A stretch of 28,161 bases of DNA. Origin: a virus. The translations under genes and the position numbers were made by a program. Position 1 is the first letter of the stretch, and every line of letters starts with the position of its first letter. Under the pieces are notes generated by a model that ran no database searches, was not told the origin of the DNA, and worked only from the letters and a program-made list of their open reading frames with translations. The DNA lies in the IMG/VR virus record IMGVR_UViG_3300028569_002832, positions 1-28,161 of that record; one strand, written 5' to 3'. Shown piece after piece: positions 1 through 23,206 of this stretch.

Positions 1-1473
1 TCAAGTCTTCGGTGGAAAGAGCAACTTGTGCTGAACGCGTGATTTTTCGAATGCATTGCACAGTTGCATATCTGCGATGACCTTGTCCAGGTCCTCGTAG
101 TCAAAGGCAGCGGTCCACTGACAAATCCATTGCATGGCGTCCAGAAAGGGACTGGGATTACCTTCACGCGTCAGGACACGAAGACAGTCCAGGTACTCTT
201 CCCGAAAAAGCGTTGGCACGATGATTCGGCAACTGTTGACGACCGAAAGTTCTGCATTCATCACAAGCCTAGCCAGGCGTCCGTTGCCATCGGTGAAGGG
301 GTGGACTTCGGAGACGAGGAACATCGCCATCAGCGCTCTGGCCGTGCCCGGGGGAACGGATGGAAGTAGCTTCGAGCCTTCGACCAGGGTGCCTCGAACA
401 AATTTCGGAGCCACGAATTCCGTATTGCCAGCCCGATTGGCCAGCGTCTTGAATTCTCCAGGTCCTACCTCTGGCCGCTCCTTCATCTGGTCGGCATGGC
501 GCTCACGCAGTTGAGTCAGGACAGACTCACCTGAGCCGAGCGTCTGGTTCGCCCATCCTGGATTGATGGCCTGCCGGAAGACACCGATGATGTCGTGCGA
601 GTCTTTAGGGCGTTCAGTGATGGGCTTGCCCTCCAGGACGAAGCCCCGAGCCTCGGTGACATCGAATTCGGTTCCCTCGATGAAGTTGCTGAAGTACGAC
701 TCCAGGAAAGCGAAATTCAGGCGAGCTCGTTCGCTCTTTGCCACTGCGGGAGGTTGCTTCAGTGGTACCGAACGCAACTGTGTTGCGAATTTTTCAAACA
801 GAGCAAAGCGATTGGCATCGTAAGGAATGTGGGCCATCATCCCTTTACCGGTGGCAGTGGACATCGCTGTCTTTCTCGTGCCCAGTACTGCACCAATGAG
901 GCCATCAAGCATGGTTAACTCGCGCTCCAGGCCTAACGATGGAGCCAATGCTCGAGCCTGGTCACGAAGGGTGTTGAGCGCTTCCTCGCCTCGGGCTTCA
1001 CAGGTGTCGATGAGGCGCTGTTCGACATCAGCCTTCCCGACTGATTTTTGCACCTTGCCACGTGAGATGGTCAGGTTCTCCAACAGGACTCGAGGCATTG
1101 AAGGAAAGTACAACGCTCTGCCCATCATCGGTGCGTCGCCTTGCGTGGGGCCGTGACCAGCGACCAACTGAACGGTCATGCCGGGCAGATCCACCCGTTT
1201 TGTATAAGAGTACGTGAGGTACATCACGCCATCGTTTGGCACCCCGCCATGGAAGGCGCTGCGCGGCCCCACGACAGCCTTGGGGTAGAGCGCTGCCAGG
1301 ACACGAATGCGTTCGCGGGCAATCAAGGCAGGCCATGCTTCCTCGGGAAGACTTGTCACCACGCCCGCAGCAATGCGCTTGAGGGTCCCTTCTCGCAACC
1401 GACGCTGGGTCGCTCTGATTTGCGCCGGAGAAAGCTCAGCGTATAGCAAGAGGGAGTCGTCGGGTGTCGGCAT
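1..1473 (-). CDS. Fic-domain protein (probable AMP transferase) with N-terminal AbiEi-like winged-helix region
   Basis: Fic enzymes usually transfer AMP from ATP to a hydroxyl side chain of a target protein. The catalytic Fic motif HPFTDGNGRLAR is complete at residues 391-402. An inhibitory-helix motif of the form SxxxEG (SNFIEG, residues 262-267) lies upstream in the same chain, as in self-inhibited class II Fic proteins. Residues about 10-200 precede the Fic core and look like an AbiEi-type antitoxin region: a short winged helix (LSPAQIRATQRRLREGTLKRIAAGV) followed by an alpha/beta part with SAFHGG. The total of 490 aa is long for a Fic protein because of this extension. The stop codon occupies bases 1-3, so the gene is complete. 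It is read leftwards and ends at the window edge, so its downstream partner, if any, is not visible. The Fic domain is certain; the N-terminal assignment is pattern-based. Confidence 0.9.
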   Translation of the reverse strand: MPTPDDSLLLYAELSPAQIRATQRRLREGTLKRIAAGVVTSLPEEAWPALIARERIRVLAALYPKAVVGPRSAFHGGVPNDGVMYLTYSYTKRVDLPGMTVQLVAGHGPTQGDAPMMGRALYFPSMPRVLLENLTISRGKVQKSVGKADVEQRLIDTCEARGEEALNTLRDQARALAPSLGLERELTMLDGLIGAVLGTRKTAMSTATGKGMMAHIPYDANRFALFEKFATQLRSVPLKQPPAVAKSERARLNFAFLESYFSNFIEGTEFDVTEARGFVLEGKPITERPKDSHDIIGVFRQAINPGWANQTLGSGESVLTQLRERHADQMKERPEVGPGEFKTLANRAGNTEFVAPKFVRGTLVEGSKLLPSVPPGTARALMAMFLVSEVHPFTDGNGRLARLVMNAELSVVNSCRIIVPTLFREEYLDCLRVLTREGNPSPFLDAMQWICQWTAAFDYEDLDKVIADMQLCNAFEKSRVQHKLLFPPKT

Positions 1474-1798: not shown

Positions 1799-2233
1799 TC
1801 AGCAGGCCTGGTTCGACATGAATTGCTCATGCCAAAGATCTGGGAGAGCGTTCCGTGTGAACCACATCATGTTGGCCTGCTGCGGCTGTTTTCCCTCCAA
1901 AATATCCAGCACCAGTGAGGGATCCAGTAGCGTCAGTCGCAAAAGTTCGTTGACCGTACTCGACGTGAGGTTCTCGAGTTTGGCGATTTCTGAGCCGCTG
2001 CTGACTTCGCCTGCATCGAGCAGGCGCTGCCAGTAATAGGCCCGAGCCAGCCCCTGAAACAGGGCGATCTGGCTGCTCTTGTCTTCTTCGAATTCGGCCA
2101 AAAAACCCTCCGCCGACTCTGGGGCCATCACCAGCGTTTTTCGGCCAGGACGTCGTTTGAGCTTGAACGGGCCGCGCGTGGAGATCCGAAGATCGCTGCC
2201 ATCCGCACCCCGACTGAGGTTCATCGTACTCAT
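1799..2233 (-). CDS. Small ParB/HTH-like protein downstream of the recombinase (split recombinase tail)
   Basis: This 144-aa protein starts at an ATG that overlaps the recombinase stop (ATGA at 2230-2233); a longer in-frame start at 2320 would lie inside the recombinase gene and is not needed. Residues about 60-115 read as a ParB/KorB-like helix-turn-helix: LARAYYWQRLLDAGE, then EIAKLENLTSSTVNELLRL, then LLDPSLVLDILEGKQP. In many proteobacterial large serine recombinases a very similar stretch (ARAxxWxxLLxxG, then LRLxxLxPDIVxxIL.G.QP) forms the C-terminal end of the recombinase itself. I infer that this gene supplies that DNA-binding module as a separate polypeptide acting with the recombinase. 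It is the last gene of a four-gene translationally coupled operon. Confidence 0.7.
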   Translation of the reverse strand: MSTMNLSRGADGSDLRISTRGPFKLKRRPGRKTLVMAPESAEGFLAEFEEDKSSQIALFQGLARAYYWQRLLDAGEVSSGSEIAKLENLTSSTVNELLRLTLLDPSLVLDILEGKQPQQANMMWFTRNALPDLWHEQFMSNQAC

Positions 2234-3573
2234 GCCGCCATCTCCATCGCCAACTTCTCTGCGCCCACGGTTCCCGGTTTCATGGTGTTGAGCAGGGACA
2301 GCCAATCCTGTGTCCGCCAATTGATCTCGAGCGTGTCGTCATTGTGCAGCGTGACCCGCTCAACCAGGCTGCGGATGATGTGGCTTTTGACCTGATCAAA
2401 GTAGCTGTCCCAAATGTCGGCGGTATGTTGCAGGATCAGCACAACCGCCTGAGACTCTGGAATACCAGGGTTGAGTGCCTGGATCCGATGCCAGTACTGG
2501 TTGAGCATCGTCCCTGAGCGCAGGAAATCCAGCACTTGCCGCGTGACCTCCTGCTCCACCGGCTCAGCCGGTTGGTTTGAAATATTGCTTTGACTGGCTC
2601 CCTCGTGCATTTTTCGGTTGTGCACGTAATAGCGGTAGACCTTGCCCGATTTCTTTTGCGTGGCCATGGGCAGGTACAGGTCTCCGGCTGGGCTGTAGAC
2701 CAAACCGCGCAGCAGAAACTGGGTTCGTGCTTTCAAAGACCATGTGGCCTTGGCCTTCTCCTCGCTGGGACGTTCCATCAACTGTTGCACGCGGTCCCAT
2801 TGAGCCTGCTCAATCAGCGGGGCGTGGGCTCCGGCAAAGTATTCACCCTTGTGCGCCAGCAAGCCCAAATACACCCGGTTGTGCAGCACCTTGTACAGCG
2901 ACTGCTTGCAAAAACTCCGTCCCGACTTGGTCAACAGATTCTGCGCCTTCATCTGCTGGACCATCTGCGTGGTTGAGCCCGTGCTGGCGTAGGTGTCGAA
3001 GATCCACCTCACGGTTTGGGCCTCCTTCTCATCGATCAGCAGCAGCCGGTTTTCTACCCGGTATCCCAGCGGTACGGGACCGCCCATCCACAGCCCCTTG
3101 CGCTTGGACGCGGCGATCTTGTCGCGGATACGCTCGCCTGTCACCTCGCGCTCGAACTGGGCGAACGACAGCAACATGTTGAGCATCAGTCTGCCCGTTG
3201 ATGTGGACGAATTGATCTGCTGGGTCACCGAACTGAAGCTGACCTTGTGCTTGTCAAAGATCTCCACCATCTTGGCGAAATCGGTCAGGGAGCGGGAGAG
3301 GCGGTCAATCTTGTAGACCACGACCATGTCAATCAGTCCTGACTTGATGTCGATCATCAGACGCTTGAGGCCAGGCCTCTCCATGTTTCCGCCCGAATAG
3401 CCAGGATCCTCATAGGTGTTTTGTACCGCCTCCCAGCCCTCTTGCCGCTGACTCATCACAAAGGACAGTCCCGACTCACGCTGGGCGTCAATGGAATTGA
3501 AGGATTGATCCAGTCGCTCGTCTGAAGAAACGCGGCAATAGACCGCACAACGTTTTGGAGTTGCCATGTTCAT
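2230..3573 (-). CDS. Large serine recombinase (resolvase/invertase family)
   Basis: A site-specific recombinase that would cut and rejoin DNA through a serine-DNA intermediate. The N-terminal resolvase domain starts with AVYCRVSSDERLDQ, with catalytic Ser16; the conserved arginine motif YKIDRLSRS and FEREVTGERI follow. A Recombinase domain comes next (PLGYRVENRLLLID to the region around GEYFAGAHAPLI), then the LRGLVYSPAG...YRYYV segment that is a zinc ribbon in relatives but has no cysteines here. I chose the ATG at 3573 (447 aa) because it forms an ATGA overlap with the DUF2924 stop; the ORF can be extended to 3621 but then overlaps that gene needlessly. It is shorter at the C-terminus than relatives, the missing part apparently being the next gene. 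It is the only integrase candidate in the window. Confidence 0.92.
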   Translation of the reverse strand: MNMATPKRCAVYCRVSSDERLDQSFNSIDAQRESGLSFVMSQRQEGWEAVQNTYEDPGYSGGNMERPGLKRLMIDIKSGLIDMVVVYKIDRLSRSLTDFAKMVEIFDKHKVSFSSVTQQINSSTSTGRLMLNMLLSFAQFEREVTGERIRDKIAASKRKGLWMGGPVPLGYRVENRLLLIDEKEAQTVRWIFDTYASTGSTTQMVQQMKAQNLLTKSGRSFCKQSLYKVLHNRVYLGLLAHKGEYFAGAHAPLIEQAQWDRVQQLMERPSEEKAKATWSLKARTQFLLRGLVYSPAGDLYLPMATQKKSGKVYRYYVHNRKMHEGASQSNISNQPAEPVEQEVTRQVLDFLRSGTMLNQYWHRIQALNPGIPESQAVVLILQHTADIWDSYFDQVKSHIIRSLVERVTLHNDDTLEINWRTQDWLSLLNTMKPGTVGAEKLAMEMAA

Positions 3574-4055
3574 TTGCCACCCGCCATATTCTTGACGCCA
3601 AAAAACGCCGGTCCAGACCATTGCGTGCCGGTGATGGTTTTGGCGATCGCTGACAGGCTGCCGTAAATCTGCTGGTTGTATTCGTAACGGCCGTCAGACA
3701 GCACATGCACCCGGTGTTGCCTGCCATCGAATTCCCGCACCAGCGTGGCACCCGGCATGGCCACCGCTTTGGCCGGGGTCTTGCTCTTGATGTTGGAGAG
3801 GTGCTGGCCGCAGTCAGCCAGTCTTTCCCGCGTGGATTGCGGCAGGGCGCCAAAGGCCAGCTCTTGGAGTCGGTAGGTCAGGCGCGAGGTCAGGAACTTG
3901 CGATTGGTGTGCTCCGGGCGACGAGAAAAATGCAAATCCCAGACTTTCCAAAGATCGGGCGTTTTCATCGCGTGCAGACTTGAGACTTGGTGCTGCACAG
4001 CGTTGAGCTTGTCTTGGCTGCGTTGCTCGCGCGGCGTGATGGAACGGTTTTTCAT
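3570..4055 (-). CDS. DUF2924 family protein, recombinase partner
   Basis: A 161-aa protein matching the DUF2924 pattern: an N-terminal helical segment with MKTPDLWKVWDLHF and RLTYRLQELAFG, a TRERL motif, and a C-terminal part GATLVREFDGRQHRVHVLSDGRYEY, YGSLSAIAKTITGTQWSGPAFFG. The family has no established activity, but it is regularly encoded just upstream of large serine recombinases in prophages and other mobile elements, as here. The C-terminal GSLSAIAKxITG part is commonly seen in proteins that may bind or assist on DNA. Start and stop both sit in ATGA overlaps with the neighbours (4052-4055 and 3570-3573), which fixes the start and points to translational coupling. Confidence 0.85.
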   Translation of the reverse strand: MKNRSITPREQRSQDKLNAVQHQVSSLHAMKTPDLWKVWDLHFSRRPEHTNRKFLTSRLTYRLQELAFGALPQSTRERLADCGQHLSNIKSKTPAKAVAMPGATLVREFDGRQHRVHVLSDGRYEYNQQIYGSLSAIAKTITGTQWSGPAFFGVKNMAGGK

Positions 4056-4495
4056 TTGTGAAATCCTTGGTCTGTAGACGGGTTCACATTCACGCTCTGC
4101 CAGGCATGAATGTCCACGAACTCGTCGATGTCAGTGGCATAAACCTGACTGCTGTGTGCTTCGGTCAGCACTTGGTGTTGACTGATGGCGGCTTGGGCCA
4201 TCAGTTCGCTGATTTGTGCCAGGGAGAGGAAACCGCTTTTTTCGCAGCGGTGGCCAGGGCGGCTTGTAGAGGGGTTCAGTGGGTCTGTCATGGATAGGAA
4301 TTGCGTCAAAAAACTGTCTACAAATCGTAGGCGCGACCCCCTCCAGCTGTAACGTGTTTTAGAGGGACACGAGTTGGAAAAGCCCATGAAATCGAGGATT
4401 TCGAGCTGCCAGCCTTGATCCATGCGGCCATCAGCAGCGGTTTTGACAAACTCGTCAAAAGCTGTATATTTATCCAGCAATCCAGCAAAACTCAT
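4052..4495 (-). CDS. Unrecognised first gene of the recombinase operon
   Basis: A 147-aa soluble protein with no family I recognise. The first 60 residues are helical and mildly acidic (LLDKYTAFDEFVKTAADGRMDQGWQLEILDF); the middle is basic (KTRYSWRGSRLRFVDSFL); the end has ISELMAQAAISQHQVLTEAHSSQVYATDIDEFVDIHAW. It ends in an ATGA overlap with the DUF2924 gene, which supports it as a real, co-translated gene. The start is less certain: ATG 4495 has only a weak GGGG element before it, and a near-consensus promoter for the opposite strand lies inside its first codons (4441-4470). A shorter start at 4423 (MDQGWQLEI) is possible. Confidence 0.6.
   Translation of the reverse strand: MSFAGLLDKYTAFDEFVKTAADGRMDQGWQLEILDFMGFSNSCPSKTRYSWRGSRLRFVDSFLTQFLSMTDPLNPSTSRPGHRCEKSGFLSLAQISELMAQAAISQHQVLTEAHSSQVYATDIDEFVDIHAWQSVNVNPSTDQGFHK
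4441..4470 (+). promoter_or_regulatory. Sigma-70-like promoter with a perfect inverted repeat over the -35
   Basis: TTGACA at 4443-4448 and TATATT at 4465-4470 are spaced by 16 bp. The -35 is part of a perfect 7-bp inverted repeat, TTTTGAC (4441-4447) and GTCAAAA (4454-4460) with a 6-base centre, so a dimeric repressor could bind over the promoter. Predicted transcription starts near 4477 and would serve the gene at 4573 after a leader of roughly 95 bases. Confidence 0.6.
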
Positions 4496-4572
4496 ACAAA
4501 CCCCAAACCGCCAGAGTCAGGGGTTGAGACGCTTCATTGCCGAATCACAAACAACAACAAAGGAGACTTGCA

Positions 4573-5814
4573 ATGAGCAAACCCCAGACCTACGCCGACA
4601 TCCTTTTGCGCCTACCGGTCGACGACACCCTCAAAACCTTCATGGAGCGTCATGCCTTGCCCTTGCCAGAGGGGTGGGCATGGAGTGACGACGTCCACAC
4701 TTCCAGAAAACTGATTGGACTCATCCAAAGTCACCTTGCGCCGCTGATGCGTGACCGCATCGTGGCCGGTTTACACGCCAGCACTCTACTGGCCCATCCC
4801 CTGGGCAAGCAGGCCATGTTTCAGGCGGCGCATTACCGGCCCACGGAATTGATGGGGCTCATCGCCTGCAAAAGCGATTTGCACCGAGCGTTTTGGCTGT
4901 ATGTTCACCATCCGGTACTGTTTGAGGCGGCGACCGAAATCGAGTACCTCGATCATCATGGGCAGCAAGCTCAGCAGCATGACCTGGGCATCAAGCGTGC
5001 TATCCAGCGCGATGACGCCTCGATCGCAGCCTTCGGCGAGGCCATCAAAGGGTTCTACCAACGGGAGCTGGGCTGTGGCGAGGTGTGTGTGGTCAACGTG
5101 TTGGACCGCGCACGCGGCACCCAACTGATCTCGATCCATGCAAAGGACCTGGCCACGGCCAAGCTCGAGTTCGAGGGCAGTCAGTTGCAGCGACGCGTGG
5201 GCAGTCCCAACATCCACATGGTGCTGGAGTACGCCCAGAGCACCGGTGTGGCCCGCACCATCATCCGGGGCGGCGCGAAGTACCACACCATGTTATGCGA
5301 AGCCTTTGCCAGACACATGCTGGGTGTGGATGCCGATGCTCAGCGCATCCAGACGCCGCAGCTGAACCTGTCGGTCTTGCGCTTGGGGATGAACATTCCT
5401 CAGGCGATCGAGGACGGCTTTGTGGGCCTGCAGGTCAAGAGTGTCAGCGTGGTCAGCGATTGCGGGCAACTCAAACTTGAATGCACCGTCCGGGCCGCCA
5501 ACGATCAGCGTTGCGTGACCGATTTGTTGGAAGAGTATTTGGGTTCAGTCAATCCGCTCACCCGGGGCTGGATGATCCAGGCGGCTGTGCTCAATTTCTA
5601 CCTTGCGCCGATGCAGGGCAAGAGCCGCTGTTCTGTGATCAGTGTGGAGCTCACCAGTAAGGGCCGGCTGAACCTGCACAAGTTCGATGAAGAGCTTCGC
5701 ACGCAAATCGAGGGCTACCTGGTGCAACTCGGGATCCTGAAATCACAGCAGGTGTTCAAGCTTGATCGGGTGCGGGAAATGGCATCCGGGATGGCCACTG
5801 ACTTGTTCGATTGA
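4573..5814 (+). CDS. Unrecognised 413-aa protein, first gene of a two-gene cassette
   Basis: I do not recognise a family. The start at 4573 follows a good ribosome binding site (AGGAG at 4561) and removes a 12-residue extension that would begin at 4537. The N-terminal 160 residues look helical (KTFMERHALPLPEGW, ELMGLIACKSDLHRAFWLYV). A middle segment, about 175-265, is mixed (CGEVCVVNVLDRARGTQLISIHAKD, then GVARTIIRGGAKYHTMLCEAFARHML). Residues about 290-400 are beta-rich (FVGLQVKSVSVVSDCGQLKLECTV). No signal peptide or membrane span is seen. It lies divergently from the recombinase operon and is followed after 9 bases by the zinc-ribbon gene, with which it probably forms an operon. A regulatory or recombination-related role fits the setting but is only inference. 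Confidence 0.75.
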   Translation: MSKPQTYADILLRLPVDDTLKTFMERHALPLPEGWAWSDDVHTSRKLIGLIQSHLAPLMRDRIVAGLHASTLLAHPLGKQAMFQAAHYRPTELMGLIACKSDLHRAFWLYVHHPVLFEAATEIEYLDHHGQQAQQHDLGIKRAIQRDDASIAAFGEAIKGFYQRELGCGEVCVVNVLDRARGTQLISIHAKDLATAKLEFEGSQLQRRVGSPNIHMVLEYAQSTGVARTIIRGGAKYHTMLCEAFARHMLGVDADAQRIQTPQLNLSVLRLGMNIPQAIEDGFVGLQVKSVSVVSDCGQLKLECTVRAANDQRCVTDLLEEYLGSVNPLTRGWMIQAAVLNFYLAPMQGKSRCSVISVELTSKGRLNLHKFDEELRTQIEGYLVQLGILKSQQVFKLDRVREMASGMATDLFD

Positions 5815-5823
5815 GGGGCGTGA

Positions 5824-6795
5824 ATGAAGCTGACGCATAACCAGCAAGCCTTCAATCTGGCCGCCCAGTTGTTCGTTCGAGGGGGACCAGTCCTGGAGTG
5901 CCATCTGCGTGCTGAGGAGGTTTCCGCACTGGCGATCTTGAAGGAGGCTAAAGCCGTCACGATGGGCCTGGTCAATCAACGTGATGCCGAATGTGCGTTT
6001 TGCGGCATGTACCGTGGCCTGATTTTCAGGAGCGCTGAGGGCTTGATGGTGCAGTGTCCGGATTGTGGTCCGTTTCGGCTGGATCCGGCCAGCCAGCGCA
6101 GTTGGGCACTCAATGATGAGTGGTTGATGCGCAAATTGCGCGGTGCCATGGACATCGCCCCGCATGCGTCCATCACCCAAATCACAGACGGGGTATGGGA
6201 CATCGGACGTTACAAAAAGCGCAGCGTGGTGCTGGCACGCCGGATTGATTTGGTGGAGCGCCATGGCCTGCGGATATTCCATGGGCCGGAGCCGCGCAGT
6301 CAAAGCTGGGTTATGACCCCCAGGCCTTTGGGAAAAATTCCCGTTGATCCACTGGTAGGAATCGCCACCTGGTGGCAACTGGAGGACCGGTTCGCCTTGC
6401 ATGGCATGGCCCTGCGCTTGTTCGAAGACGATTGGGGCGCGATTGCAAATGCCAGTGACTCATCCACCCCGGTCGCTGTCCACGGACCGTTCAGTGCGGA
6501 CTTTGCCTGGGTGCACCTTCCGGGCTGGGCGCATGGTCCGATCCGGTTGACCGATGCTCAGGCCCAGTTGTTTGTTGCGCTCTGGAAACACCGGCATGAG
6601 GCGCAGTCGGCCGAATTTTTGATGCGCGAGGCGGGCCTGGACAGTGCCCGGCCCATTGACGTGTTCAAGGTAAAGGCGGCAAACCGGGGTGACCCGGTGT
6701 ACGAGGGGCCTTTGCAAGCCTATGAGCAGTTGGTCAAGCGACAACGCAGATTGGGCCTGTATCGGCTGGATTGGGCGGAGTCGTCAAGCCTTTGA
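5824..6795 (+). CDS. Zinc-ribbon protein with C-terminal winged-helix-like region
   Basis: This 323-aa protein has a four-cysteine zinc-ribbon signature, C57-x2-C60 and C78-x2-C81 (ECAFC, QCPDCG), near the N-terminus. The C-terminal 60 residues (AQAQLFVALWKHRHEAQSAEFLMREAG, then VFKVKAAN, then LVKRQRRLGLYRLDW) have the spacing of a winged helix like that of OmpR-type regulators, ending in a beta-hairpin wing. I read it as a probable nucleic-acid-binding protein and cannot name the family. The ATG at 5824 lies 9 bases after the preceding stop, with GAGGGG upstream; the pair is probably co-transcribed from the promoter at 4443-4470. The following 58 bases carry the operator of the next module. 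Confidence 0.75.
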   Translation: MKLTHNQQAFNLAAQLFVRGGPVLECHLRAEEVSALAILKEAKAVTMGLVNQRDAECAFCGMYRGLIFRSAEGLMVQCPDCGPFRLDPASQRSWALNDEWLMRKLRGAMDIAPHASITQITDGVWDIGRYKKRSVVLARRIDLVERHGLRIFHGPEPRSQSWVMTPRPLGKIPVDPLVGIATWWQLEDRFALHGMALRLFEDDWGAIANASDSSTPVAVHGPFSADFAWVHLPGWAHGPIRLTDAQAQLFVALWKHRHEAQSAEFLMREAGLDSARPIDVFKVKAANRGDPVYEGPLQAYEQLVKRQRRLGLYRLDWAESSSL

Positions 6796-6803
6796 ATGCA
6801 GTA

Positions 6804-6861
6804 TCTAACAAGAAATTTGACTTCTAACATCAGCAATGTTAGATTCCGTTCCCATGTTAGA
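6804..6861 (+). promoter_or_regulatory. Promoter with nested four-half-site operator for the AbiE-like module
   Basis: Four copies of one 7-base half-site are arranged symmetrically: TCTAACA at 6804-6810 and 6823-6829, and its complement TGTTAGA at 6837-6843 and 6855-6861. The inner pair forms an 8-bp inverted repeat (TCTAACAT/ATGTTAGA) around a 5-base centre; spacing on the two sides is 19 and 18 bases. A promoter is embedded: TTGACT at 6817-6822, 17 bp, TAGATT at 6840-6845. Any dimer on the inner pair would block it, which fits autoregulation by the encoded winged-helix protein, as known for AbiEi. Confidence 0.7.
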
Positions 6862-7855
6862 CGCGACTCTTCCCCAGCAAACTGTCCGGTACCTGAACCA
6901 GGTGCTCGGAGGAGAAAGCGTGCGTGTAGCTTCCAATGGGAAGACCGCTCAACTGCCGTATTTTCTTCAGGACGGCTATGAGGTCTTGCCCGGCGAACTG
7001 CTGGGACAGCCAATCACACTGGCTTGTGTCAAAGGGCGTCAGCCGCTGGCTGCACAGCAACTAGACCAACATGCAAAGCGATTGCGGGAGTTGTTGCACG
7101 CACCGGTCATCATCGCTTTGCCAGACGTGGCCCCCGGTGAGCGCAAGCAGCTGATTGCGCATGGTGTGGCCTTCGTGGTTCCGGACCGACAACTGTTCGC
7201 ACCGCAGATGGGGATGATCTTGACCGAGCGCTTTGGTGCTGAACCTCGTCGGGAGCAAGAACTGGCCAGCCCGGCCACGCAGGCCCTCTTGATCTGGTTT
7301 TTGAATCACCATCCGGTCACTGAAACCTGGCATCCGTTTGAAGAGGCAGCCGCTCTTGGTTATGCCGGTATGACAGCCACCCGGGCCATTCGAGAGTTGC
7401 TGCAATTCAAGCTGTTTGAGTTGGAGGTGCGAGGCCGGGCCAAACACCTCAAGCTCAATGGAACGCGCCGTGAACTTTGGGAAAAGGCCAAGCCCCACCT
7501 GCGCACTCCGGTCATCAAAACCAAGTGGACCTACGATCGTCGCATTCTTGAAGTGACGGGCGCACGTTGGGCTGGCGAGAGCGCATTGGCACGCCTGACC
7601 ATGATCAATGAGCCGCAACAGCCAGTGATTGCCATGACGGCTGAGGCAGGGCAGCGTGCCCTGCAGGCGGGCATCTTCTTTGAACCACGGCAAATTGCCG
7701 ATGGCATGGCCGTGCAGGTGTGGCGCTATGAGCCCGGCATGCAAGCGAAGGAAAAGACCGTGGATCCCTTGTCTTTGTGGCTCAGCCTGAGGGACAACCG
7801 TGATGACCGGATCCAGATGGCGCTCGATGAGATTGAGGAGAAGTTTCTGTGGTGA
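6854..7855 (+). CDS. Winged-helix (MarR/AbiEi-like) protein, probable antitoxin/autorepressor
   Basis: The N-terminal 130 residues form an alpha/beta region (LLHAPVIIALPDVAPGERKQLIAHGVAFVVPD). Residues about 140-205 look like a winged helix: ATQALLIWFLNHHPVT, EEAAALGYAGMTATRAIRELLQFKLFELEV, RGRAKHLKLNG. The gene overlaps the following nucleotidyltransferase gene, the antitoxin-then-toxin order of AbiE-type systems. Three starts are possible. ATG 6836 lies inside the predicted promoter. ATG 6854 lies about where transcription would begin and so may be leaderless. GTG 6920 follows a strong GGAGGAGA. I chose 6854 because codons from there already show G/C at third positions. The role is inferred from the operator and gene pairing; I cannot confirm membership of the AbiEi family from sequence alone. 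Confidence 0.75.
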   Translation: MLDATLPQQTVRYLNQVLGGESVRVASNGKTAQLPYFLQDGYEVLPGELLGQPITLACVKGRQPLAAQQLDQHAKRLRELLHAPVIIALPDVAPGERKQLIAHGVAFVVPDRQLFAPQMGMILTERFGAEPRREQELASPATQALLIWFLNHHPVTETWHPFEEAAALGYAGMTATRAIRELLQFKLFELEVRGRAKHLKLNGTRRELWEKAKPHLRTPVIKTKWTYDRRILEVTGARWAGESALARLTMINEPQQPVIAMTAEAGQRALQAGIFFEPRQIADGMAVQVWRYEPGMQAKEKTVDPLSLWLSLRDNRDDRIQMALDEIEEKFLW

Positions 7856-8589
7856 GAGGGTTGGCGATTTTTCAGGCGTGGTTCAAAGACTTCGAGAGCC
7901 AGTACGTCCTCATCGGCGGGACAGCAGCTTCGATCACCATGACCGAGGCGGGGCTGCCATTCAGGGGCACCAAGGATCTGGACATCGTTTTGCATGTAGA
8001 GGTTTTAACGCCTGCGTTTGGCCAGAAATTTTGGGAATTCGTGCAAGCCGGGGGCTACCAGCAAAAGGAGGGTGATCCTGCGCAAAAGCCCTGCCTGTAC
8101 AGGTTCCAAAAGCCCCAAGACGAAGACTTCCCGCACATGCTGGAGCTGTTCTCGCGTGTGCCAGACGGTTTGAGCTTTGTCCCACCTGGCCATCTCACGC
8201 CCATCCCGATGGATGAGCAGATTTCTAGCTTGTCAGCCATTTTGCTGAATGACGAGTATTACCGGTTCGTGCTCGCTGGCCGCAAGAGCAAGCACGGCAT
8301 GCCGTCCTGGGTGGGTGAAGATCGTCTGATTCCACTCAAGGCTGTGGCTTGGTTGGAAATGAACGAGCGAGTGCGTCAGGGTGAGGTGATTGACTCCAAA
8401 AAGATCAACAAGCACCTGACCGACATCATCCAGTTGTCAGCTCTGCTGCAGCCAGGTCAAGTGATTGATTTGCCCGAACAACTCAGTGCTGATTTGCGGA
8501 CTTTTGCCCAAGCAATCGTCACATTGAATCGCCCTGAACAGTTGCAAGCCATGGGTAGGATTGCGACGGCATACGCTTTCGATTTGTAA
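7849..8589 (+). CDS. AbiEii-like nucleotidyltransferase, probable toxin
   Basis: A 246-aa protein with the minimal nucleotidyltransferase signature: GGTAAS at residues 23-28, followed by RGTKDLDIVL with the metal-binding pair D43 and D45. The helical C-terminal half (LIPLKAVAWLEMNERV, DSKKINKHLTDIIQLSALL) matches the arrangement of AbiEii-type proteins, in which K/H-rich helices follow the fold. AbiEii/MenT relatives transfer nucleotides to RNA or other targets and arrest growth. Translation starts at GTG 7849 (or GTG 7852), overlapping the preceding stop, with GAGGAG at 7835-7840. The overlap implies coupled synthesis with the upstream winged-helix protein. Confidence 0.8.
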   Translation: MVRGLAIFQAWFKDFESQYVLIGGTAASITMTEAGLPFRGTKDLDIVLHVEVLTPAFGQKFWEFVQAGGYQQKEGDPAQKPCLYRFQKPQDEDFPHMLELFSRVPDGLSFVPPGHLTPIPMDEQISSLSAILLNDEYYRFVLAGRKSKHGMPSWVGEDRLIPLKAVAWLEMNERVRQGEVIDSKKINKHLTDIIQLSALLQPGQVIDLPEQLSADLRTFAQAIVTLNRPEQLQAMGRIATAYAFDL

Positions 8590-8890
8590 ATTCAAACGAC
8601 ACCTAATTTGGCCGTTTTATTGACATCAGAACGCCCCTGTCTCAGATGTCTTTCGGGGCTTACGTACACGTTGGGGCAATTTCTCGTCCATCAGAGTCAG
8701 GCCGATGGTGTCCTGAGAGGTGTCGAGTAACTGATCGAGCTTGCCAAGTTCACCGAACACCTGCATGGCTCTTGCGAAATTAACCAGGGCAGTTCCGGGG
8801 TGCCCTGCTTCCATGCGGCGCACGGTGTGGCTGGACGTGCCAATGCGTTCAGCCAGATCCTGCTGCGTCAGGTGCCTGCGGCGACGTGCA

Positions 8891-8896
8891 AGCGAG
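8891..8896. repeat. Target-site duplication, left copy (AGCGAG)
   Basis: AGCGAG directly abuts the TG end of the IS21-family element; the same hexamer follows the CA end at 11420-11425. Deleting one copy plus the IS restores the XRE reading frame, which confirms the call. Confidence 0.85.
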
Positions 8897-8945
8897 TGTT
8901 TGACGACAATTACCTTGGCCGGTTGACGACAACTATGTTGGCCGG
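8897..8945 (+). repeat. Left end of the IS: two tandem 23-bp terminal repeats
   Basis: After the TGT tip, two 23-base repeats follow back to back (8900-8922 and 8923-8945). Both begin TTGACGACAA and end TTGGCCGG, and they differ at few positions. Multiple end repeats are a known feature of IS21-family elements and bind the transposase. Confidence 0.85.
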
Positions 8946-9020
8946 TTAGAGGCCTGTTCCGGGCGGGTCCGGGAGGCGGGGCTACCGTTGAGCCTTCGAG
9001 ACAAATCGAAGGTAGGCGGC

Positions 9021-10514
9021 ATGCCCGGCAAGAGAATCACGGACCACCAAGTGCACAAGTACAAGCAACACCGCAACCAACTCAGCCAAGTGGCCTCCGC
9101 CGCCAAAGCTGGCATCAGCGAGCGCAGCGCCAGGCGCATCGAGCAAGCCCCAAGCCTGCCCTCCCAGCGCCCCAAACGAAACTGGCGCACCAGACAAGAT
9201 CCGTTGAATGCGGTTTGGGACAGCGAGATCGTGCCTTTGCTTCAAACCGACGTACATCTCAACGCCGTCACCTTGCTCGAAGAACTCCAACGCCGCCACC
9301 CAGACCAGTGGGACACCCGCGTGCTGCGCACCTTGCAGCGGCGCATGCGCCTGTGGCGTGCCCAGTTCGGTGCCGAGCGAGAGGTCTACTTTGCCCAAGA
9401 GCACCCGCCCGGGCGACAAGGCATCTCCGACTTCACCGTGGCCGATGCGCTGGATGTGGAGATTGCCGGTGCCCCGTTCAAGCACCGCCTGTACCAATTC
9501 GCGCTGGCCCACTCCGGCTGGCGGCACGTCACGGTCATTGACACCGGCGAGAGCTTCTTGGCGCTGTCCACCGGTTTGCAGGCGGCGCTTTGGGCCTTGG
9601 GCGGCTCGCCAGAAGAGCACCGCACCGACAGCCTCTCAGCCGCCTTCAATAACTTGGCTGAGCAAGAGGAGCTGACCCAGCGTTACAGCGATCTGTGCCT
9701 GCACTATGGTCTTCGCCCGACCCGCTGCAACCCCGGGCAATCCAACGAGAACGGCTCCATTGAGGCGCGCAACAACTCTTTGAAGAAAGCACTGGACCAG
9801 GCGCTGCGTCTGCGCGGCACCCGCAGCTTTGAGACGCGAGTCGATTACGAGGCCTTTGTGGATACCGTCGTGCAACGCATGAATGCGCGCGTGGTCAAAC
9901 TGCTGGCCGCTGAGCGGGCCGTGCTCAAGCCCTTGCCCGTGCGCCGCACAGCAGAGTTTGAAGAGATCCCAGCCCGGGTGAGCAAATTCGCCATCTTCAC
10001 TCTCAAAGGCGTGCTCTACAGCGTGCCCAGTCAACTCATTGGCCACCGGCTGATGGTGCGCCAATACGCCCAGCATGTGGAAGGCTGGCTCGGTGGGCAA
10101 TGCGTGGTCAGTTTGCCAAGGGCCAAGCCTGTAGAGGGCCAGCGCGTTGGCCGCAGCATTGATTACAGGCACTTGGTGGGCGCTTTGAAGCGCAAGCCCG
10201 GTGCGTTTGCCCGCTGGGTGCTGCGCGATGCGGCATTCCCCCGTGCGGTGTACCGCCAAACGTGGGAGCGGTTGTCGGCGCAAAGGCCCGAGCTCGAGGC
10301 CTGCAAAACCATGGTCGGCTTACTGGCGCTGGCCGCTGACGGGCACGAGGCGCAATTGGCCCAGGAACTGCAGCAGTTGATCGAGCTGGACCAGTTGCCA
10401 GACCTGAGCGCTTTGAGCCTGCTGCTGCAGCCACCCCGCGCGAATGTGCCGTCGGTGGTGGTCACGCTGCCCACGCTGGCCGGTTATGACGATTTGTTTG
10501 GGGTGGCAGCATGA
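9021..10514 (+). CDS. istA: IS21-family transposase IstA
   Basis: A 497-aa DDE transposase that cuts and joins the IS ends. The N-terminal helix-turn-helix (HKYKQHRNQLSQVASAAKAG, SERSARRIEQA) starts soon after the chosen ATG, which has AAGGTAGG upstream. The catalytic triad is visible as the Asp in QGISDFTVADAL, the Asp in HRTDSLSAAFN and the Glu in NENGSIEARN. The C-terminal part has the RVGRSIDYRHLVGAL pattern usual in IstA. An upstream start at 8988 is possible but less supported. The stop overlaps the istB start (ATGA), so the pair is translationally coupled. Confidence 0.95.
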   Translation: MPGKRITDHQVHKYKQHRNQLSQVASAAKAGISERSARRIEQAPSLPSQRPKRNWRTRQDPLNAVWDSEIVPLLQTDVHLNAVTLLEELQRRHPDQWDTRVLRTLQRRMRLWRAQFGAEREVYFAQEHPPGRQGISDFTVADALDVEIAGAPFKHRLYQFALAHSGWRHVTVIDTGESFLALSTGLQAALWALGGSPEEHRTDSLSAAFNNLAEQEELTQRYSDLCLHYGLRPTRCNPGQSNENGSIEARNNSLKKALDQALRLRGTRSFETRVDYEAFVDTVVQRMNARVVKLLAAERAVLKPLPVRRTAEFEEIPARVSKFAIFTLKGVLYSVPSQLIGHRLMVRQYAQHVEGWLGGQCVVSLPRAKPVEGQRVGRSIDYRHLVGALKRKPGAFARWVLRDAAFPRAVYRQTWERLSAQRPELEACKTMVGLLALAADGHEAQLAQELQQLIELDQLPDLSALSLLLQPPRANVPSVVVTLPTLAGYDDLFGVAA

Positions 10515-11344
10515 ACGAGGTGTCAATTACAAAGCCCAAAACGACAACTACGGCGACAACTACCTGGGCCACCACATCAGCTCGGCTGGGCCTGATGCTG
10601 ACCGACTTGAGGTTGCCAACGGTCAAGCGTTTGGCTGGGGATCTGTGCGCCCAATCCGACTTGGAAGGCTGGCCTGCACACCGCTTTTTGGAAGCGTTGC
10701 TGGAGCACGAGATCAACGAGAGGGAGCGCAGGCGCATAGACCGACATCGCCACGACTCGGGACTGGGGCCAGACAAGCGCCTGTCGAGCTTTGACTTTGC
10801 GGCTGTGCCCAGCGTGTCCAAGGCGCAGGTGATGGCATTGAGCGAAGGGACAGAGTGGCTTGACCGGGGTGCGAATGTCTTGTTGTTCGGCCCGCCCGGG
10901 GTGGGCAAGAGCCACTTGGTCAGTGCTTTGGGCCATGCCTTGATTGACGCAGGCAAGCGGGTGTTGTTCACACGCTGCTCGGATCTGGTGCAACGCTTGC
11001 AGGCGGCCAGGCGTGATCTACGGCTGCCGCAGGAGTTGGCCAAGCTGGACAGGTTTGATTTGTTGATTCTGGACGACTTGAGCTACGTGCGCCGTGACCA
11101 AGCCGAAACATCGGTGTTGTTTGAATTGATCTCTGAGCGGTATGAACGCAAGAGCTTGGCCATCACGGCCAACACGCCGTTCTCGCAGTGGGGAGAGGTG
11201 TTTGTAGATCCGGCCATGACGATAGCGGCAGTGGACCGCTTGGTGCATCACTCCACGATATTGGAGATGAATGTGGAGAGTTACCGCAGGCGCTCGGCGC
11301 AGGCCATGGCCACACCGGTGAGAAAGGTCAGCTCAAAAAAGTAA
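10511..11344 (+). CDS. istB: IS21-family transposition helper ATPase IstB
   Basis: A 277-aa AAA+ ATPase of the DnaC/IstB group that works with IstA in target selection and transposition. The Walker A motif GPPGVGKSH and Walker B segment LLILDDLSYV are present, followed by FELISERYERKSLAITANTPFSQW and a conserved C-terminal HHSTILEMNVESYRRR. The first 30 residues are T-rich and less conserved; the start ATG overlaps the istA stop. Confidence 0.95.
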   Translation: MNEVSITKPKTTTTATTTWATTSARLGLMLTDLRLPTVKRLAGDLCAQSDLEGWPAHRFLEALLEHEINERERRRIDRHRHDSGLGPDKRLSSFDFAAVPSVSKAQVMALSEGTEWLDRGANVLLFGPPGVGKSHLVSALGHALIDAGKRVLFTRCSDLVQRLQAARRDLRLPQELAKLDRFDLLILDDLSYVRRDQAETSVLFELISERYERKSLAITANTPFSQWGEVFVDPAMTIAAVDRLVHHSTILEMNVESYRRRSAQAMATPVRKVSSKK

Positions 11345-11690: not shown

Positions 11691-11975
11691 ATGCTGCTAG
11701 CAACAACAGCACCCACGGCACCAGCCCGCAAGGGCGCATATGCCGTTTTGCCACCCACCCCTGAAACATTTAACCTGAGCGAGACGGACCTGGCTTGGCG
11801 CTGGGGCATGAATCCCAAGACGCTGCAGCGCTGGCGTATGGAGGGGCGAGGTCCGAGCTACCTGAAACTGGGAAAGCGGGTGAACTATCCGCTCAATGCC
11901 GTGATCGCCTTTGAAATGTGTGTTCAGCACGTCTCCACGTCGCAGCGTGCAGTCACTGGAGGCAGTGGCGTATGA
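11691..11975 (+). CDS. AlpA/excisionase-like helix-turn-helix protein
   Basis: A 94-aa protein with a MerR-type (HTH_17-like) DNA-binding domain: NLSETDLAWRWGMNPKTLQR, WRMEGRGPSYLKLGKRVNYP, LNAVIAFE. Proteins of this size and pattern act as phage excisionases or early regulators. The ATG at 11691 has AGGAG at 11681-11685; an earlier in-frame start at 11676 lies before that site and is rejected. Its stop overlaps the next start (ATGA), so it leads a coupled early operon downstream of the putative operator. Confidence 0.8.
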   Translation: MLLATTAPTAPARKGAYAVLPPTPETFNLSETDLAWRWGMNPKTLQRWRMEGRGPSYLKLGKRVNYPLNAVIAFEMCVQHVSTSQRAVTGGSGV

Positions 11976-21499: not shown

Positions 21500-23206
21500 A
21501 TGAGCACATACGCTGCCAGCGCAAAGCAATATGCAGAACGCGTCGTCTCCAAGGAAATCCTGACCTGCGAGTGGGTTCAAAAAGCCTGCAAGCGTCAACT
21601 TGATGACCTGATCCGTTTCAAACGCAAGAGCAGCATTTACCAGTTCAACCCGGAGCTGCTCGATCGGTACGGCAGGCCCTACCGACCCGCAGACAACCTT
21701 TGTGCCTTCATCGAGCGCCTGCCTCACGTCAAAGGACCACTGGCCAGCCGGATGATTGTTCTGGAGCCTTGGCAGGTGTTCATTCTGTCAACGGTATTTG
21801 GTTGGGTCAAATCGGACGGCAAGCGCCGTTTCAGGCGTTCCTACATCGAGGTGCCTCGGGGCAACGCCAAGTCCACCCTGTCATCGGCGGTGGGTCTGTA
21901 CATGCTCGCAGCCGACCGCGAGGGCGGCGCTGAGGTGTACTCGCTGGCCACCACCCGCGATCAAGCCCGCATCGTCTTTGGCGATGCCCAGACCATGGCA
22001 CGCCTGAGCCCGGGATTTCGGAACCGGTTCGCGGTGAACGTCGGGGCGCACAACATGAATGTCTTGCAAACCGGCTCCAAGTTCGAAGCGCTCTCAGCTG
22101 AGGGCTCCACGCTGGACGGCCTGAACATCCACTTCGGTTGTATTGACGAGCTGCACGCCCACAAGACCCGAACGGTCTATGACGTGGTGGAGACCGGTAC
22201 CGGCAAGCGGGACAACTCGCTGCTGTGGGTGATCACCACGGCTGGCAGCAACCGCTCGGGGATTTGTTACGAGGTTCGAAGCTTTGTCACCAAGCTGCTC
22301 AACCGGGTGTTCGAGGACGACTCTCAGTTCGGGATCATTTACGGCCTCGATGAAGGGGACGACTGGACGATCAAGGACTCCCTCATAAAGGCCAACCCCA
22401 ACTGGGGCATCTCTGTGCGCGAAGAGATCCTGGTGCCCCTGCAGGCCAAGGCTATGCAGTTGCCCAGCGCGGTCAACAACTTCAAGACCAAGCACCTCAA
22501 CGAGTGGGTGAGCGCGGACAAGGCCTGGATGGACATGCGGGCCTGGGACGCGGGCACCAACCCGGATCTGGAGCTGGACCAGTTCTTGGGCCAGCCTTGT
22601 TGGGTGGGCTTGGACCTGGCCAGCAAGACGGACATCGCGGCACTGGTCATGGTGTTCCAGCACCCTGACACACCTGACGCATACGCGGTGTTTGGCAAGT
22701 ACTACCTGCCTGAGGACACGGTCCAGGCTGCGGGCAACAGCCAGTACGAGGGCTGGGCCCATACCGGACGCTTGTCGGTGACGCCGGGCAACGTGATCGA
22801 CTTCAGCTGGATCGAGGCCGATTTGCAGGACATCGCAACCCGGTTTTCAGTGGAGGCCGTGGCCTTCGATCCGTTTCAGGCCACACAGCTGTCCACCCGG
22901 ATGCTCTCCGAGGGCCTGCCCATGATCGAGGTGCGTCCTACGGTGCTCAATTTCAGCGAACCGATGAAGACGCTTGAAGCCCTGGTCCTGCAAAAGAAGC
23001 TCGTCCATGACGGCGACCCGGTATTGGCCTGGATGGCCAGCAACGTGGTGGCTCACACGGACGTCAAAGACAACATTTATCCACGCAAGGAGCGAGCAGA
23101 AAACAAGATCGACGGCATCGTGGCACTGATCATGGCCCTCTCACGGGCAATCAAACCGGGGGACTCGGTGGTGCTGGGATCCGACTACGAGCTGATGCTG
23201 CTCTAA
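21500..23206 (+). CDS. Terminase large subunit
   Basis: A 568-aa DNA-packaging motor ATPase and nuclease. The Walker A-like motif is RGNAKST at 120-126 and the Walker B region is CIDELHAHKT at 214-223. The C-terminal RNase H-like nuclease begins at GLDLASKTDIAAL (Asp at 372 and 378), with a later AFDPFQATQL segment and NKIDGIVALIMAL near the end. Length and motif order are typical of the HK97-type large terminase. AGGA lies just before the ATG. Confidence 0.95.
   Translation: MSTYAASAKQYAERVVSKEILTCEWVQKACKRQLDDLIRFKRKSSIYQFNPELLDRYGRPYRPADNLCAFIERLPHVKGPLASRMIVLEPWQVFILSTVFGWVKSDGKRRFRRSYIEVPRGNAKSTLSSAVGLYMLAADREGGAEVYSLATTRDQARIVFGDAQTMARLSPGFRNRFAVNVGAHNMNVLQTGSKFEALSAEGSTLDGLNIHFGCIDELHAHKTRTVYDVVETGTGKRDNSLLWVITTAGSNRSGICYEVRSFVTKLLNRVFEDDSQFGIIYGLDEGDDWTIKDSLIKANPNWGISVREEILVPLQAKAMQLPSAVNNFKTKHLNEWVSADKAWMDMRAWDAGTNPDLELDQFLGQPCWVGLDLASKTDIAALVMVFQHPDTPDAYAVFGKYYLPEDTVQAAGNSQYEGWAHTGRLSVTPGNVIDFSWIEADLQDIATRFSVEAVAFDPFQATQLSTRMLSEGLPMIEVRPTVLNFSEPMKTLEALVLQKKLVHDGDPVLAWMASNVVAHTDVKDNIYPRKERAENKIDGIVALIMALSRAIKPGDSVVLGSDYELMLL

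Follow-up and report, generated by a model that had tools for sequence, protein, structure and literature searches.

A widespread prophage gene pair at the head of a probably damage-induced early operon, with a predicted RdgC/RexA/CENP-N-type fold in its first protein

What is the task of two adjacent genes that lie back to back with the serine recombinase operon of a virus, and is this task tied to the recombinase? The window, i.e. the whole stretch of 28,161 nucleotides analysed here, is a temperate-phage record of 28 kb with terminase, portal, capsid and primase genes. The nearest relatives of this phage are found in Limnohabitans and other Burkholderiales, and a terminase was present in 7 of 12 related records. 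A sequence-only reading of the window had described a gene for a 413-aa protein followed after 9 bases by a second gene, and both could be confirmed (here called A and B, Table 1). The divergent recombinase operon with four genes described in the same reading is real, but its fourth gene is better read with 79 amino acids. A reading of this small minus-strand frame with 147 amino acids was dropped because the 79-aa form matches a small gene at the equivalent site in relatives, and the stretch between this gene and A is thus intergenic.

Table 1. Location of the A-B pair, its control elements and neighbouring genes in the window
Feature	Position	Strand	Evidence or remark
phrog_14161 protein, last gene of recombinase operon	1799-2230	-	PHROG match
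Large serine recombinase / phage integrase	2230-3567	-	PF00239, PF07508, phrog_95
DUF2924 protein	3570-4055	-	PF11149, 2e-41
Small gene, 79 aa; its homologue "f15" adjoins DUF2924 in distant relatives	4052-4291	-	homology
Divergent intergenic control region	4292-4572	.	minus-strand 79-aa ORF starts at 4291
A-B promoter TTGACA-N16-TATATT	4443-4470	+	11/12 consensus bases; kept in aligned relatives
LexA/SOS-type box CTGTATATTTATCCAG over -10 hexamer	4462-4477	+	conserved in close homologues
Gene A	4573-5814	+	ATG, 413 aa, matches phrog_37634 (no function annotated)
Gene B	5824-6795	+	ATG, 323 aa
f12, small HTH_17 / excisionase-like protein, conserved across family; heads next early-gene block	11691-11975	+	HTH_17 match
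D5-type phage primase/helicase	14037-16355	+	marks window as phage
Large terminase subunit	21500-23206	+	marks window as phage

The early operon runs in the order A, B, cargo, f12, g11918, g12511 and primase. Directly after B, two overlapping genes (6836-8589) were found, which also follow B in about ten relatives. They gave no significant match in Pfam, PHROG, NCBIfam or PADLOC, and the second of them presumably resembles an AbiE-type nucleotidyltransferase. The A-B side is separated from the early replication genes by an inserted IS21-type element (IstA/IstB) at 8988-11344, and a minus-strand XRE-type reading frame to its left (about 8600-8920), which is without evident start, may be interrupted by the element. 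The left end of the window (1-1473) encodes a Fic-domain protein that is absent from related loci and possibly represents host DNA or cargo.

The pair, its context and its breadth could be read directly from sequence. Relatives were present on 29 (A) and 33 (B) viral contigs, and relatives of A were found at 113 genome places, 80 of which were kept for analysis; in nearly all relatives B follows A. The pair occurs in Pseudomonadota broadly, and dozens of contigs have retained it, with identities falling to about 20%. When 398 Pseudomonadota genomes were drawn evenly, a deeper profile identified A in 32, the number of 16 obtained in a shallower tally being too low. Distant forms with about 20% identity belong to the same family as the near ones, with an hhalign probability of 99.6% over 374 columns for A and of 93.7% (E 2e-7) for B. 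The match to phrog_37634 reached 1.6e-40 for A and 1.6e-71 for a distant A.

Neither the window forms nor the distant forms of A and B were present among the isolated phages of INPHARED, and a plasmid search with A returned nothing beyond a short match to 18% of the protein. The databases held no Pfam or NCBIfam model and no name for A or B, and the PADLOC models, which represent known anti-phage defence families, did not match either protein. A partial literature search, little of it aimed at the pair, did not return a paper describing it. The earlier impression that the pair has no named family was therefore justified, A matching only phrog_37634, to which no function is assigned. Its description as a unit of a mobile element was borne out as well, since the pair is conserved and located in temperate phages. 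As far as tested, A-B is an undescribed, widespread early-phage module, with A forming a new branch of a known fold. In addition, Limnohabitans lacus contains a second, broken copy of A with an intact SOS box (L085, G001:C27:19412-20913), and in some distant relatives (L025-L027, L060) the end of the predicted provirus follows B immediately, and an attachment site may therefore adjoin A-B there.

Of the near-consensus promoter with inverted repeat proposed in the sequence-only reading, the promoter stood and is conserved; the repeat TTTTGAC-N6-GTCAAAA exists in the window but is not conserved and was rejected as operator. Conserved instead is a LexA-type box, which was found in 35 of 38 close homologues when at least 12 of 16 matches with exact CTG/CAG ends were demanded, two more homologues being one base off. 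Among random windows from the homologue loci, 28 of 3200 (0.9%) reached this score. The four Limnohabitans genomes contain the box pattern six times, five times at promoters of A and once at a umuD-like gene, and do not contain the reversed control pattern. Similar boxes are located upstream of the lexA genes of Limnohabitans and Ramlibacter. A-B thus has what is expected of an SOS operon, a conserved CTG-N10-CAG box over its promoter. In Limnohabitans sp. JirII-31 (L151/L223) a umuD-like gene on the contig that carries A, at a distance of about 4-5 kb, has a 16-base SOS box identical to that of the A promoter.

In most other lineages the LexA-type box is missing, and an XRE repressor and an M78 (ImmA/IrrE) peptidase are encoded divergently from A. 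This ImmR/ImmA-type control was not found in the window itself and was found in most relatives. A compact layout is present at one locus (L209), where B and A followed by f12 point leftward and repressor, protease, DUF2924, recombinase and phrog_14161 point rightward. The linkage of A-B to the repressor side is kept between lineages despite rearrangement elsewhere in the genome. The repressor-side operon of several relatives also contains a gene for an OST-HTH/LOTUS-domain protein (L118:5609-6481). Three relatives (L054, L088, L089) have neither repressor nor protease and carry a CTGG-N8-CCAG box upstream of A, which resembles boxes beginning with CTGG at the lexA gene of Ramlibacter. Since a fully supported node in the A tree separates this group from the window group, LexA-type control has probably been gained twice. 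Promoter, box and the exchange of repressor and protease are features of the DNA sequence; with a LexA box in the window lineage and a repressor with protease in the relatives, both arrangements alike would imply that A-B is induced by DNA damage.

Whether the pair belongs to the recombinase was addressed with the neighbourhood survey that had been suggested for this locus. Serine recombinase and DUF2924 were both found near A at 44 of the 49 genome loci whose flank upstream of A measures 7 kb or more and, for distant A homologues, at 11 of 11 loci with enough flank; DUF2924 was also present in 29 of the 32 genomes having A. The homologues are thus not located mostly away from recombinases, and neither protein gave a clear match to a housekeeping or defence family. 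Seen from the other side, A lies within 12 kb of only 28 of the 145 DUF2924 copies in the 398 Pseudomonadota genomes, a number that undercounts the linkage since some copies of A are on very short contigs. Because 117 of the 145 DUF2924 copies have no A nearby, A-B is probably not the dedicated partner of the recombinase, and the specific shared function assumed earlier could not be upheld. Loci with repressor, protease, A and B and no serine recombinase in the flank (L116, L135, L084) have as neighbours a tyrosine integrase with methylase and AAA_15, an HsdM methylase, or an Abi_2 protein.

The same data bear on the possibility that one of the two proteins serves the neighbouring serine recombinase as recombination directionality factor, turning integration into excision at induction. 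The tight linkage to serine recombinase and DUF2924 and the early damage-type control would fit, great diversity is known among the factors of serine integrases (PMC5814800), and the promoter repressed by ImmR in ICEBs1 is Pxis (PMC11841131). However, only 28 of the 145 DUF2924 copies have A nearby, repressor, protease, A and B lie next to a tyrosine integrase at L116, and a separate HTH_17/excisionase-like gene, f12, is kept in the early operon. We therefore consider a directionality factor unlikely, although it survives better than the other alternatives discussed below.

For A, the structure search proposed earlier was successful on a predicted model. The model of A (mean pLDDT 82, pTM 0.62) consists of an N-terminal helical region and two alpha/beta lobes, and the best 14 Foldseek matches were all CENP-N/Chl4, RdgC or Iml3. 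With VIA-align, where Z below 8 may mean a common arrangement only, the CENP-N entries reached Z 7.6-10.0 over about 170-180 residues, mainly with A residues 58-261. RdgC reached Z 7.6 over 205 residues (2owy) and 6.6 (2owl), aligning nearly its whole chain with A residues 127-394 (127-386 for the Z 7.6 match), and CENP-L reached Z 6.4 with residues 121-367. In a viral structure library a phage RdgC ranked fourth. The structural matches lie mostly within residues 58-261 and hardly cover the C-terminal lobe. The predicted model of A has the two-lobed alpha/beta arrangement of RdgC and Iml3-Chl4; RexA was not among the structural matches listed, which we do not count as evidence against the fold.

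RdgC (PF04381) was rejected as a sequence homologue of A, with no Pfam match and an hhalign probability of 0.1-0.3%, and a sequence search of solved structures with A gave no match. Since no sequence relation to RdgC was found, our claim for A is a shared predicted fold of the RdgC/RexA/CENP-N/CENP-L type and not membership of the RdgC family. Few columns are invariant between near and distant A; most of them contain hydrophobic residues or glycine, and no evident catalytic set stands out among them, which fits a structural role in DNA binding. One could go further and see in A a genuine relative of CENP-N from prokaryotes, with the same three-part arrangement of helical bundle, CLN homology domain and dimerisation domain. 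The DNA-gripping core of the eukaryotic inner kinetochore and the phage protein would then come from one bacterial or viral DNA clamp, and A-B would be a new class of lysis-lysogeny effector; we regard this extension as doubtful.

Protein B is a predicted DNA binder. Its model (pLDDT 87) contains a winged helix within residues 1-97, which is interrupted by the zinc ribbon, a middle beta domain, and a second winged helix at residues 217-319 that matches the OmpR/PhoB-type DNA-binding domain; the C-terminal winged helix had already been suspected from the sequence. The structural matches, with Z 6-7.5 each, are fold-level calls only and cover the two ends and hardly the middle. The zinc ribbon noticed earlier (CX2C-X17-CX2C; C57-x2-C60-x17-C78-x2-C81) is invariant in 36 close homologues. 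As an essential trait or hallmark of the B family it had to be given up, because distant B proteins have lost the cysteines.

Taken together, we favour, at about an even chance, that A-B is a damage-induced early phage module in which a DNA-clamp-like A and a DNA-binding B act on phage or host DNA at lytic switching. In this temperate phage with its serine integrase, the early (lytic) operon would begin with A and B. In the window lineage the host LexA probably represses this operon via the box over the -10 hexamer, and DNA damage would destroy LexA and switch A-B on; in most relatives the divergent phage XRE repressor and the ImmA/IrrE-type protease would do LexA's job. Judging by its predicted fold, A would most likely work without enzymatic activity, as a DNA clamp forming a dimer on double-stranded DNA, and B, with its two winged helices, would most likely bind DNA in order to position A or to control the operon. 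Together the two proteins would most likely modulate the SOS state or RecA-driven recombination, or cover the phage DNA, and as outcome the phage would commit to excision and replication. By analogy with RdgC and RexA, A probably modulates processes that depend on RecA or makes the commitment to lysis more stable. Induction by damage, clamping of DNA and the effect on RecA or the lytic switch are the steps that we infer. A true chromosomal RdgC is present in 19 of the 20 host genomes checked, which we count against this explanation. Mobile elements also carry unrelated SOS modulators, and the position of A-B alone therefore does not establish its target.

A function in replication or partition of the phage DNA, with B recognising a phage site at which A grips the DNA in the manner of CENP-N at centromeric chromatin, would also make use of the two winged helices of B. 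The layout of CENP-N (PMC5777823) resembles the predicted layout of A, and A-B is located upstream of the replication genes. Cargo genes separate them from A-B in the window lineage, however, and units of repressor, protease, A and B exist without recombinase (L116, L135), which makes this function quite improbable. Still more doubtful is a prophage exclusion or defence system comparable to RexA-RexB of lambda, which the predicted position of A in the reported RexA fold group (PMC11077077) might suggest. The type I methylase, AAA_15 ATPase and Abi_2 protein next to some relatives would agree with such a system. Exclusion requires expression in the lysogen, whereas A-B is predicted to be silent there behind its LexA- or repressor-controlled promoter. 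RexB is a membrane protein, B is a predicted DNA-binding protein, and no PADLOC model matched. The one-sided association with the recombinase would also be expected if the two were linked only by flanking one divergent control region in a single phage lineage and A-B served a host takeover unrelated to DNA, which is the least probable alternative given that both proteins are predicted DNA binders and that the repressor-side linkage is kept although the remaining genome has been rearranged from one lineage to another.

With the damage-induced module as the preferred reading, an unnamed and widespread prophage gene pair is placed at the head of a probably damage-induced early operon with a control site that can be tested. 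The predicted fold of A joins phage RexA, bacterial RdgC and kinetochore CENP-N/L, and A-B thus offers a tractable phage system for finding out what a fold of the RdgC/RexA/CENP-N type does to DNA. It also provides one operon whose control moved from a phage repressor-protease pair to the host LexA, apparently twice.

Among catalogued families, phrog_37634 includes A and has no assigned function. The control of the operon can be compared with that of two known elements. In ICEBs1, immR-immA lie beside an inducible divergent promoter (PMC11841131), and the arrangement of repressor and protease on one side and an inducible operon on the other is shared by the A-B relatives (as at L209). ICEBs1 is a different element with a different integrase type, the first divergent genes in the phage family are A-B and not xis, and repressor and protease have been lost from the window lineage, where a LexA box is present. 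Phage GIL01 uses the host LexA directly as lysogenic repressor (PMC4551915), and repression of the early promoter by host LexA, predicted here, would be common to both phages, although GIL01 and its genes are unrelated and a gp7-like co-repressor was not identified in the window phage.

For protein A the best structural matches were CENP-N and Chl4 of the inner kinetochore. In CENP-N, a bundle of five helices is followed by the CLN homology domain and by a C-terminal domain that binds CENP-L (PMC5777823), and helical bundle and CLN homology domain follow each other in a similar order in the predicted A. CENP-N/Chl4 are eukaryotic, bind CENP-A nucleosomes and show 3-11% identity to A in the aligned part; the likeness is one of predicted fold. 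RexA, RdgC, Iml3 and Chl4 were reported to share one DNA-binding fold, and in the same report RdgC is cited as lowering RecA activity (PMC11077077). A is unlike RdgC, a chromosomally encoded, recombination-associated DNA ring, in its additional N-terminal helical region, in being phage-borne and in its pairing with B, and profile-profile tests detected no sequence similarity between the two. RexA of lambda, which binds DNA non-specifically and biases lambda toward the lytic state (PMC11077077), is like the predicted A a phage protein of the reported RdgC/Iml3/Chl4 fold; RexA is made in the lysogen and has RexB as partner, whereas A is located behind a putatively inducible promoter and is paired with the predicted DNA-binding protein B.
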